Part shown: piece after piece, positions 7,849-47,023 of the stretch
Layout of the letters: the number at the start of each line of letters is the position of its first letter
How positions within the stretch are numbered: the stretch's first letter is position 1
Assembly (NCBI GenBank): GCA_027315065.1
Contig: DAHUYT010000001.1
Location: 1 to 64,000, forward strand
Direction of reading: 5' to 3'
Source of the DNA: Nitrososphaerota archaeon
GTDB lineage: Archaea > Thermoproteota > Nitrososphaeria > Nitrososphaerales > Nitrosopumilaceae
DNA length: 64,000 nt
Notes under the pieces: generated by a model
The model's database searches: none
Seen by the model: the letters and a program-made list of their open reading frames with translations, nothing else
What the model was told of the DNA's origin: nothing
Position numbers and translations under genes: made by a program

Positions 7849-8520
7849 TCAAATTTTTCTACTTTTTGTGAAGGCCCGAGCAAATTCATCTATTGTTTTT
7901 TCCCAATTTTTGGCCTTGACTATACCACTTGCTACCAAGATGCCATCTGCTCCAAGATCAAGTGCTTTTGACACGTCGTCTCCTGTGACAATACCTGCGC
8001 CGCAGAGCAACCGGGTAGAATTTTTTGCATCTTTGACTGCCTTGACAGAATTTGTTATGATCTCTGGTCTTTCCTTTGATACTGCTTTACCGCTTCCTAT
8101 TAGCTCAGGAGGTTCTATTGCAATGTAATCTGGATTTAATCTTGCATATTTTTTTACTTCATTCACATTTTTTACACATATCACAGATGTCATCTTCAAA
8201 CTCTTCAGTCTAGAAACTATTTGTTCAATGTCTTGACTTGCAATCCTGTGTTCGCTGTGATTGATTAGAGAACCACTTACTCTTGATTTTTTTAAAATCT
8301 CTGGAACGATAAAACCTGTTGTACTGCCAACTTTAGAGATATCTACATGTTGGGAAAACACTGTAACTGGAAGATTGGCCACTTCTGAGATTAGGTGTTG
8401 TGGAGGACACACGATGATTTTTATTTTATACTTTTTGGCAATCTTTGATGCAGCTTTTGCCAGTCGTAATGAATTGCCTGCTGAAATCTCTTCATAATTT
8501 TTAAAGTTAATTATGAACAA
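7849..8520 (-). CDS. tpiA: triosephosphate isomerase (archaeal type)
   Basis: LFIINFKNYEEISAGNS..., YIAIEPPELIGSGKAVS, LLCGAGIVTGDDVSKALDLGADGILVASGIVKAKNWE. A TTG start at 8520 is more likely than the ORF-track ATG at 8595. Confidence 0.92.
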   Translation of the reverse strand: MFIINFKNYEEISAGNSLRLAKAASKIAKKYKIKIIVCPPQHLISEVANLPVTVFSQHVDISKVGSTTGFIVPEILKKSRVSGSLINHSEHRIASQDIEQIVSRLKSLKMTSVICVKNVNEVKKYARLNPDYIAIEPPELIGSGKAVSKERPEIITNSVKAVKDAKNSTRLLCGAGIVTGDDVSKALDLGADGILVASGIVKAKNWEKTIDEFARAFTKSRKI

Positions 8521-40020: not shown

Positions 40021-40971
40021 TTGAAAAACAGAAGCATGATTATAGCTATTGCAATCTTGGCATCACCAATAATGTTTGCGTTAGCTGTCTATCCAGACAC
40101 ATTTAGTCTTGGCTGGAATCAAGGCAGAGGGGGGTTTCTCTTCGCATTGGCATTTATTGCCGCTGAATTGATAGGTGTAAAACTAGAGATTCCAAAGAAA
40201 AGACTTATCGCCGCAATTCCATTGGCAGGAGCAACTATCGTATATCTGGCATCTATCGAGTTTGGCCTTAAAAATTACCTTGCTGCCATTGCTCCACAGT
40301 TTCATGTCTTGCTACTTGATTCGTGGGGCTGGATGTGGGATTTTATCATACTTGCGATCTTTTTCATGGCCACGCTAACCGTACTTTTTGGCAAGAGGTG
40401 GATAAGAATATCGCCGGCAGGTCCTATCTATACTGCAGGTACTGCAATAATTTTGTCGCTTGATGCATTCTTTCCATATGATACACTTGGTCCACTACAA
40501 TATGTTGTGCCGTATCTTGTAAAGTTAGATGTCTTTCTAATAACTATTTTCCACTTGGGAGTTGCCAGCGCGCACGGAAATATTATGTTCTTAAACGGTG
40601 ATCATGGACCATTTGCACTTCAGGTATTCTGGCCATCTGCAGGTGTTCATAGCATGATAATTTATTCTCTTGTTATGATGGCCTTCTTACTGAAGATGAA
40701 TATAAAAAGAAACAGGAAAGCAGTATACTTTGCAATTGGAGTTATCGGAACAATTGGGGTAAATGTAATTCGAATACTGTCTCTTTCACTATTTGTACTC
40801 AAAATATCTACTAATGTAAACGAATTTCAATCATTCCACGGTATTGCAGGAGAGATAATGTTTCTACCATGGATCTTTATTTTTCTACTCATTGTAACGT
40901 ATGTAGAAACAAAACGATTAAAAAAAAATGAATTAGAAGTTGCAAAATATGAACACGGTAAAAATCAATAG
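40021..40971 (+). CDS. archaeosortase/exosortase-like membrane protein (thaumarchaeosortase candidate)
   Basis: Multi-TM protein with motif order FWPSAGVHSMIIYSL ... GVNVIRILSL ... FHGIAGEIMFLPW, as in exo/archaeosortases. Confidence 0.75.
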   Translation: MKNRSMIIAIAILASPIMFALAVYPDTFSLGWNQGRGGFLFALAFIAAELIGVKLEIPKKRLIAAIPLAGATIVYLASIEFGLKNYLAAIAPQFHVLLLDSWGWMWDFIILAIFFMATLTVLFGKRWIRISPAGPIYTAGTAIILSLDAFFPYDTLGPLQYVVPYLVKLDVFLITIFHLGVASAHGNIMFLNGDHGPFALQVFWPSAGVHSMIIYSLVMMAFLLKMNIKRNRKAVYFAIGVIGTIGVNVIRILSLSLFVLKISTNVNEFQSFHGIAGEIMFLPWIFIFLLIVTYVETKRLKKNELEVAKYEHGKNQ

Positions 40972-41437
40972 GGAAATAAACCCAGGAATATATGGACTAG
41001 AAGATATTTTTTACGGTTTAAAGAAAGTTGAAATTCTACAAAAGATCTTTGGCTCAATTACGGAACTCGATGATGTCTTTTCAAAGACAAAGGTAATTGT
41101 GGACACAAGCAGCCACTACATGCACGTAAAAAACGAAGATGCTATAATTGTGATTAGTCTGAACCATCTGAAAAACTCTGATAAGGTAATTCTCTATCTT
41201 GACATAGTGCACGAACTAGTACATGTGAAACAACAAAGGCAAGGTCTAGATCTGTATGATAAATCGTACTCTTATGTGGATAGACCGACTGAAATTGAGG
41301 CTTATATTGTATCTGTTGAAGAGGCAAAAAGACTAGGTATGCAATACTATGAAATAATAGAATACTTGCAAGTGGAATGGATTACACCTGATGAACATAA
41401 GAGACTTGCAACACACGTAGGGCTTGAAAAGCCTTAA
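40940..41437 (+). CDS. predicted zinc-metallopeptidase-like protein (HExxH)
   Basis: LYLDIVHELVHVKQQRQGLDLYDKSYSYVDRPTEIEAYIVSVEEAKRLG: HELVH plus downstream Glu. Confidence 0.7.
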   Translation: MQNMNTVKINREINPGIYGLEDIFYGLKKVEILQKIFGSITELDDVFSKTKVIVDTSSHYMHVKNEDAIIVISLNHLKNSDKVILYLDIVHELVHVKQQRQGLDLYDKSYSYVDRPTEIEAYIVSVEEAKRLGMQYYEIIEYLQVEWITPDEHKRLATHVGLEKP

Positions 41438-44113: not shown

Positions 44114-44362
44114 CTAATATAAGAAAATTTTCGACATGGGATCTAACTTGCTTGATAGGAAATTTAGTATCTCCTCTGCATTATACATGTAGAAAAACTC
44201 ATCAAAACCATTTTTTGATATATTTACACAATATCTTCTAGATGTTTTATTGATAAAAACAAACCCTATTTTGTCTTCCACTCTTATACCCTCATCAGAA
44301 TCCAAAACTTTGAGATGTTTTAACAGATTAGTTTTTGCGATCTCTTGCTCTTGGTAACTCAT
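44114..44362 (-). CDS. small conserved hypothetical protein
   Basis: 82-aa ORF overlapping the PAC2-like gene. Confidence 0.5.
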   Translation of the reverse strand: MSYQEQEIAKTNLLKHLKVLDSDEGIRVEDKIGFVFINKTSRRYCVNISKNGFDEFFYMYNAEEILNFLSSKLDPMSKIFLY

Positions 44363-45143: not shown

Positions 45144-46325
45144 GTGGACTATGATGAGCACATAATGATCGAGATCTTTAATTCCTTTTCCTCAAATAAA
45201 GACAGTTTTGAACCATTTGAGAAAAACATGGTAAAGATATTCATCTGCGGTCCGACGTTATATGATTATACGCATCTGGGACATGCTAGAATATTTCTCA
45301 CGTATGATCTCCTGTGTAGACATTTGCATGAACGAGGCTATGGTACTGATGTTCTGGTCAATATGACTGATATCAATCAAAATGTATTCAATAAAGCAAA
45401 AAACGAATCAAAAGATTATCATACAGTTGCTAGATTCTATGCAAAGGGATTTGTCGAAGATCTAGATCTCCTGAATATCAAAAGCATAAACAGACTTGCA
45501 TATGTTTCAGATTATGTTTTTTATATGGAAGATCACATATCCCAACTGTTAGAACAAAAAGTTGCATATTATGCAAATGGGAATGTCTATCTTGACATCT
45601 CAAAAGATGAAAAATATGGTATATTGTCTAAGCAATCACGAAACCAACTTCAACTTCATAGGTTGGATATAGGGCCTAACAAGAAAAGCCAAGAAGACAT
45701 CATGTTATGGAATTGTTCTGATGACTTTGGATTCTCGTGGAAAAGTAAGTTTGGGAGTGGAATTCCATGGTGGCACATACAAGACACGACCGTTGCATTA
45801 GAAAATTTTGGACCAAATTATGATATCCATGGTGGTGCAAGAGAGCTTTTGTATCCTCATCATGAAGCACATTTGGCTCAATACAGATTGTTTTCAACAT
45901 CTGAAAATCCAGTAAAGATATGGATGCATGTAGGTCTTGTTCTCTCAAATGGGGAGAAAATGTCAAAATCACTCGGTAATGTTGTATGGTCAAGAGATCT
46001 AACGCAAAAATATGGACAAAATCTATTACGACTTTATATTTTCTCTAAACATTATCGTGAAGATATTAGTTTTGATGAAAAGCAAATTGTTGAGGGAAAA
46101 CAACTATTAGAGAAAATATATCTTGCATGCACAAAAACATCAGAAAAAACAGATTCCGTACTATCCAAACTCGTTGACGAATTTTTCATTGCATTAGATG
46201 ATGATCTGAATTCTCCAAAAGCGCTTGGAGTATTTGAAAATATTTGTTCCAAAGTAATTGTAGGAAGTAATATAGGATATGATGATTTTCAACGAATATG
46301 TCAAGTATTGGGAATAATCCTCTGA
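45144..46325 (+). CDS. cysteinyl-tRNA synthetase-like ligase lacking the C-terminal anticodon-binding region
   Basis: CGPTLYDYTHLGHARIF (HIGH), WWHIQDTTVA, DIHGGARELLYPHHEAHLAQ, GEKMSKSLGN (KMSKS). The ORF ends after the helical domain. Confidence 0.85.
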   Translation: MDYDEHIMIEIFNSFSSNKDSFEPFEKNMVKIFICGPTLYDYTHLGHARIFLTYDLLCRHLHERGYGTDVLVNMTDINQNVFNKAKNESKDYHTVARFYAKGFVEDLDLLNIKSINRLAYVSDYVFYMEDHISQLLEQKVAYYANGNVYLDISKDEKYGILSKQSRNQLQLHRLDIGPNKKSQEDIMLWNCSDDFGFSWKSKFGSGIPWWHIQDTTVALENFGPNYDIHGGARELLYPHHEAHLAQYRLFSTSENPVKIWMHVGLVLSNGEKMSKSLGNVVWSRDLTQKYGQNLLRLYIFSKHYREDISFDEKQIVEGKQLLEKIYLACTKTSEKTDSVLSKLVDEFFIALDDDLNSPKALGVFENICSKVIVGSNIGYDDFQRICQVLGIIL

Positions 46326-47023
46326 TAACAAGACTGGAAGAGATAAGCCAATCTTTCACTGGCATGTGGGCGAATTCGGTATCTTTTAAATGTGGAACAT
46401 TCTTTTTTAACCCCTCTCTTCCAAATGACATTTTTTTGGACAAACTCACAAACATAACTTGTATCAGCAACGAAATGCTAGATAATGCACTGATATTATT
46501 TGATAAACATGGAACAACTCCATATGTTTATGCATTGAATTATCCAAAACTAGAAGAAAATCTACTTGAGAAAAATTTCAGACTCTATGATGTTCAACAT
46601 GTTCTCACAAAAGTACCTGATTCGTCAAAAATTTTAAAAGCACATATGATATCTACTGATGATTCTATGCTATGGTCAAAAACATTTTGTCAGGCATATG
46701 ATTGTAATGATTGTATAATACCTGTAGACGAAATAGTAAAAAAATCAATTTCCTTTATAGAGTATTACGTTGATGACTCAATTAGTTCCTGCGTTGCATT
46801 ATATGAAAAAAATTCAATATTAGGACTATATTGTCTTGGAACAATTCCACGCATGAGAAAGAAAGGGCATTCCATCTCGCTGATTGATTTTGCAATCAAC
46901 GAAGTAAAGAAGCGTAATCTTGAGTTGCTTATGCTTGAAACATATCAACGTGATGGGCTGCTCGATTTCTATCTGAAACTAGGTTTCAAAGAGATTTATA
47001 AAAAAAATATCTATACAATTTGA
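46298..47023 (+). CDS. GNAT family N-acetyltransferase
   Basis: ILGLYCLGTIPRMRKKGHSISLIDFAINEVKKRNLELLMLETYQRDGLLDFYLKLGFKEIYKKN. Overlaps the CysRS-like gene. Confidence 0.85.
   Translation: MSSIGNNPLITRLEEISQSFTGMWANSVSFKCGTFFFNPSLPNDIFLDKLTNITCISNEMLDNALILFDKHGTTPYVYALNYPKLEENLLEKNFRLYDVQHVLTKVPDSSKILKAHMISTDDSMLWSKTFCQAYDCNDCIIPVDEIVKKSISFIEYYVDDSISSCVALYEKNSILGLYCLGTIPRMRKKGHSISLIDFAINEVKKRNLELLMLETYQRDGLLDFYLKLGFKEIYKKNIYTI

Follow-up and report, generated by a model that had tools for sequence, protein, structure and literature searches.

In E. coli cysteinyl-tRNA synthetase (CysRS), the zinc ion that recognises cysteine is held by four residues: C28, C209, H234 and E238. Cysteine is also the substrate of MshC, the CysRS-derived ligase of mycothiol biosynthesis. 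A review of duplications among aminoacyl-tRNA synthetases (aaRS) lists two CysRS paralogs, CysRS* and MshC (PMC9437257). CysRS*, for which the same review cites Mukai et al. (2017), comes from Desulfobacterales, has no anticodon-binding domain and charges SelC*. For archaea, a review of thiols reports neither a mycothiol pathway nor a full complement of mycothiol genes (PMC7278568), a point that counts against the reading favoured below. In the literature searched, which lay mostly outside subscription journals, no description was found of the CysRS paralog of the archaea considered here, and no major low-molecular-weight thiol is named for ammonia-oxidizing archaea (AOA).

Such a paralog is encoded in the window analysed here, a stretch of 64,000 nucleotides from a member of the Nitrososphaerota. 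The favoured reading, to which a probability of about one half (0.5) is given, is that its product is a CysRS-derived ligase acting outside translation; it would join cysteine to an acceptor whose recognition involves no anticodon, in a system that includes acetylation by a GNAT enzyme and further partner proteins.

The putative ligase gene, its metal site and its relatives

The CysRS-like ligase is encoded on the forward strand at 45165..46325 (386 aa), in a frame that is open from a GTG at 45144 (393 aa). Relatives of the protein begin at the equivalent of its M8, therefore translation probably starts at ATG 45165 and not at GTG 45144. The ORF is identified as a CysRS homolog by its match to PF01406 (E=3e-77). 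Its score against TIGR00435, the CysRS equivalog model, is 301.6 bits and lies below the cut-off of 340, and the match ends at profile position 374 of 466, where the protein itself stops. Short paralogs of this kind have a median length of 389 aa, compared with 472 aa for full-length CysRS. Thus, the anticodon-binding domain is absent. The catalytic and helical domains are present. The initial annotation had described a homolog without this C-terminus and with intact HIGH and KMSKS motifs, and both descriptions are borne out; the catalytic motifs read HLGH and KMSKS. Pairwise dN/dS values between the ligase and 26 relatives are 0.05-0.20, as expected for a genuine ORF on which purifying selection acts.

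How far does the metal site depart from that of E. coli CysRS? Alignment with the E. coli enzyme (1li5) does not recover Cys209 or Glu238, and the altered zinc ligands that had been noted by eye are confirmed: the four positions read C/D/H/H in the window protein. They correspond to C35 (codon 45246..45248), a presumed zinc ligand, D214 (45783..45785), H239 (45858..45860) and H243 (45870..45872), all on the forward strand. Two further changes near the site are G204W and E208Q (E. coli numbering). When the zinc positions were compared in 44 full-length and 97 short CysRS homologs, C28, D209 and H234 were found in 97 of 97 short paralogs; together with T68 and W205, they are invariant in the short-paralog clade. 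By contrast, position 238 is variable, with H in 47, E in 30, I in 10, L in 6, Q in 3, and Y in 1. Part of the 97 short paralogs came from a DNA pattern that demands D209 and W204, and those picked by similarity alone also carry D209. The search for further paralogs used a DNA pattern for PWWH(I/M)QD, a motif that is also present in many Candidatus Nitrosotalea, including N. devanaterra (LN890280.1), which makes an ammonia oxidizer of this group the most likely source of the window; seven non-archaeal matches to the pattern were dismissed as chance, there being no CysRS frame at these sites.

Aspartate at position 209 is not confined to the short paralogs. It is found in 17 full-length CysRS proteins of other Thermoproteota, which keep C, H and E at the remaining positions (C-D-H-E). 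Most of these proteins are the sole CysRS homolog of their genome, and no SepRS above cut-off was found in the tested genomes that encode them. An Asp ligand is thus compatible with Cys-tRNA synthesis, and archaeal CysRS enzymes that must be functional have a C-D-H-E site. These full-length, usually single-copy enzymes of non-AOA Thermoproteota (loci L011, L015, L020, and others) are a natural metal-site variant in translation. In MshC, position 209 is occupied by Cys and position 238 by Ser (8hfm).

The source genome (1.74 Mb, 98% complete) encodes a canonical full-length CysRS with a C-C-H-E site on a separate contig. A second CysRS homolog is present in 30 of 30 GNAT-bearing related genomes tested. 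Those other copies whose sequences were read are full-length and C-C-H-E; the exception is the copy in genome G303, which is full-length and C-D-H-E. Phylogeny, which had been proposed as a check, places the short paralogs in a single clade: in maximum-likelihood trees they all fall on one side of a branch, with SH-aLRT support of 97 in one tree and 99 in another, which additionally took in one MshC and two bacterial CysRS. The best tree does not group MshC with the short paralogs, although such a grouping is not rejected (p-AU 0.30). According to sequence searches, the closest full-length relatives are archaeal D209 CysRS proteins, with about 37-42% identity.

Other unusual CysRS-like genes were also seen. 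Loci L240-L245 (families f4 and f26) encode a different CysRS-like family of about 410-420 aa, which has a CGPSxYQ motif, lacks PHHE and occurs beside a normal CysRS. In family f6, genome G030 (loci L027 and L135) has a 387-aa CysRS that is C-C-H-E and lacks the anticodon-binding domain, and it also has SepRS (628 bits). On plasmids, PLSDB holds 624 records with a CysRS homolog, 503 of them from Klebsiella, and the gene is often unlisted.

Partner genes of the putative ligase

Directly downstream of the ligase lies a gene for a tandem-GNAT-fold acetyltransferase of 241 aa (46298..47023, forward strand); its first 28 bases overlap the end of the ligase gene. The acetyl-CoA motif is in the C-terminal half of the protein, and R187 and G190 are invariant. 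AF2 models it with a tandem GNAT fold (pLDDT 94), and the fold matches extend across the two halves of tandem GNATs. Among them, the mycothiol synthase MshD (2c27) ranks tenth (E=2.8e-8, TM 0.61, 10% identity), and two GNAT-fold aminoacyl-tRNA-dependent synthases, Sbb17 and Sba18, are found as well. TIGR03448, the MshD model, does not figure in the matches listed for the window GNAT and is weak in 2 of 18 family members. The GNAT fold is too common to fix a substrate.

A small conserved protein of 82 aa is encoded on the reverse strand (44114..44362), divergently to the ligase and the GNAT. Members of this family are 82-100 aa long and carry the motif LDxDEGxR, and in nearly all of them the last residue is Tyr; no Lys, Ser or Cys is invariant. 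The protein has no sequence match in Pfam, NCBIfam or the PDB. Its model (pLDDT 88) is an alpha/beta domain, for which a fold search of the PDB gave nothing better than E 0.05. Outside the order, the small protein is found in three genomes; in two of the three (G176 and G218, which belong to two families) it is part of a linked trio with the ligase and the GNAT, the GNAT match in G218 being weaker (E=8e-9). It is absent from nearly all genomes with a full-length C-D-H-E CysRS. An LDxDEGxR protein is also encoded in a genome without a short paralog (G160; L223, 9851-10204), beside what appears by eye to be an LLM-like oxidoreductase.

Do these three genes belong together? All three were counted across one set of 400 genomes of the order: 128 have the GNAT, 133 the small protein and 129 the short paralog, this last count comprising 114 genomes with two CysRS homologs and 15 that were assigned by hand, where the single match is the paralog. 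The pairs share 120, 121 and 121 genomes, and 114 genomes have all three. The Fisher p values for co-occurrence are near 1e-76, a statistic that ignores phylogeny; the positive genomes come from ten or more family-level groups. In a clustering of neighbouring genes at 38 loci, only the ligase, the GNAT and the small protein recur across 9-11 families. The short paralog, the GNAT and the small protein are a conserved gene system, and the ligase is regarded as an aaRS-derived enzyme in a new system. Linkage is not universal: in genus g169 (Nitrosopolaris-like) the small protein still adjoins the paralog but the GNAT is unlinked from the ligase, which counts against the favoured reading.

Several neighbours were considered as members of the system and rejected. 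Outside AOA synteny there is no recurrence of inositol-phosphate synthase, deoxyhypusine synthase, a LysE transporter, PAC2, or SMC, and that of a SPASM-type radical SAM protein is limited to loci of family f3. In four loci of Nitrososphaeraceae (L064, L073, L074, and L081), the short paralog has the radical SAM gene (SPASM-type by eye) upstream of it and the GNAT is followed by inositol-1-phosphate synthase, at a distance of only 25-70 bases in some of them. In locus L070, the GNAT and the small protein flank a degraded short CysRS-like remnant (8074-8328), and an apparently intact short CysRS-like copy is present elsewhere in the genome (G438:C37).

Two further genes stand beside the cassette in some lineages. 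The window encodes a putative HExxH (HELVH) metalloprotein of 165 aa (40940..41437, forward strand), about 2.7 kb from the small protein, and this arrangement is common to other Nitrosotalea-type loci. In other lineages, homologs of the gene adjoin the GNAT or are fused to it. The fusion of an HExxH domain to the GNAT is found in two genomes of family f62 (L247 and L248); in this family and in G176, HExxH genes and thioredoxin/glutaredoxin-like CPHC genes are in the same cluster as the trio. The Pfam M78/IrrE match of the HExxH protein is weak (E 0.03-0.06). The glutaredoxin-like gene is absent from the 64-kb window and is seen in two lineages only, which counts against the favoured reading. 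Its place beside the cassette in two distant lineages suggests a redox thiol. A multi-pass membrane protein, archaeosortase/exosortase-like by eye, is encoded at 40021-40971 and is conserved in AOA synteny.

Proposed function and alternatives

A change of acceptor is well supported, because the genome has a canonical second CysRS, the ligase has no anticodon-binding domain, and its conserved partners do not belong to translation. How might such an enzyme work? The kept pocket and metal-site residues suggest that the ligase adenylates cysteine. It would then join the amino acid to an acceptor that is not read via an anticodon, in the simplest case a small-molecule amine, as in MshC. The GNAT may acetylate the product of the ligase or a precursor, while the protein of about 80 aa might be an obligate accessory or the acceptor. 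The HExxH and glutaredoxin-like proteins may belong to this pathway as well. Its end product could be a low-molecular-weight thiol that contains cysteine, as an archaeal equivalent of mycothiol, and thiol biosynthesis is the leading guess for the pathway. The broader proposal, that Nitrososphaerota make an undiscovered cysteine thiol by means of a multi-gene system, as a mycothiol analogue derived from an archaeal CysRS independently of MshC, is tentative and rather doubtful. The absence of an identified acceptor-making gene for the cassette counts against the favoured reading. The mycothiol pathway proper was rejected: scores against the MshC and MshD families are far below cut-off and PIG-L (MshB-type) deacetylases are not clearly associated with the cassette, being found in 14 of 25 genomes with it and 8 of 25 without.

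It has to be asked whether the same genes might instead modify a protein or peptide, with the ligase or the GNAT placing cysteine or another amino acid on the small conserved protein or on a peptide and the HExxH protein processing it. The small protein is nearly obligate and is conserved at both ends, in the LDxDEGxR motif and the terminal Tyr, and the HExxH domain is protease-like as well as fused to the GNAT in two genomes. However, the family has no invariant Lys, Ser or Cys that could serve as acceptor and, since an aaRS-type enzyme activates the carboxylate of the amino acid, the C-terminal Tyr is no obvious acceptor either. Together with the weak M78/IrrE match, this makes protein modification unlikely. 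A role in translation, in which the ligase still charges tRNA-Cys, or an unusual tRNA recognised by its acceptor stem, as a spare CysRS or feeds a GNAT-fold aminoacyl-tRNA-dependent transferase, would be consistent with the intact catalytic motifs, with the presence of Sbb17 and Sba18 among the fold matches, and with the charging of SelC* by a CysRS* that also lacks the anticodon-binding domain (PMC9437257). Such a role is quite unlikely in a genome with a canonical CysRS and for a GNAT that keeps its acetyl-CoA motif. Moreover, a tRNA gene was rejected as a cassette partner: there is none in the window, and the tRNAs or tRNA-like calls in 20 cassette loci are few and scattered, with none adjoining the cassette.

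Could the altered metal site select a different amino acid, or an analogue? The site is C-D-H-H in the genus of the window, and E208Q and G204W are fixed beside it in the lineages that bear the changes, which would fit such a selection. Conversely, there are genomes without SepRS whose single-copy, full-length CysRS carries D209, and position 238 varies among orthologs and holds Ser in MshC. The ligand changes are hence weak grounds for proposing a new amino acid and do not support one; zinc may be bound through C, D and H, with or without the second H. A different amino acid is thus considered distinctly improbable, and of the change in amino-acid or acceptor specificity suggested by the initial annotation, only the part concerning the acceptor is retained. 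It is scarcely credible that the ligase is a decaying CysRS duplicate without function: a domain has been lost and one copy is degraded in L070, but the dN/dS values contradict decay, the catalytic motifs are kept, and the short paralogs form one clade with constant partners.

If the ligase acts outside translation, as favoured here, it would be a case of an aaRS leaving translation in archaea. The cassette, which is found in soil AOA and their relatives, suggests an undescribed pathway, perhaps that of an archaeal cysteine-based protective thiol, and the CysRS-derived ligase and its constant partners single out particular genes. For one host, Ca. Nitrosotalea devanaterra, the complete chromosome has been sequenced, and the genera of its family that lack the cassette provide a natural negative control.

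Comparison with known systems

MshC (cysteine:GlcN-Ins ligase; TIGR03447; PDB 3c8z, 8hfm) is likewise derived from CysRS, has no anticodon-binding domain and pairs with a tandem-GNAT enzyme, MshD; the residue at the E238 position is also replaced. However, the window ligase scores 216 bits against TIGR03447, compared with a cut-off of 485, it has Asp where MshC keeps Cys at position 209, and its source genome (G000) has no PIG-L (MshB-type) deacetylase. Similarly, MshD (PDB 2c27, 1ozp) shares with the window GNAT a tandem GNAT fold and an acetyl-CoA motif in the C-terminal half, but the two are only 10-11% identical, and TIGR03448 is matched weakly by few members of the family.

CysRS* of Desulfobacterales is another CysRS paralog without the anticodon-binding domain. 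It sits with SelC* and SelB*, whereas no tRNA gene is associated with the window ligase. The closest full-length relatives are the archaeal C-D-H-E class I CysRS of other Thermoproteota, which share Asp209 with the ligase. In contrast to the ligase, these enzymes keep both the anticodon-binding domain and E238, and they are usually the only CysRS of their genome.
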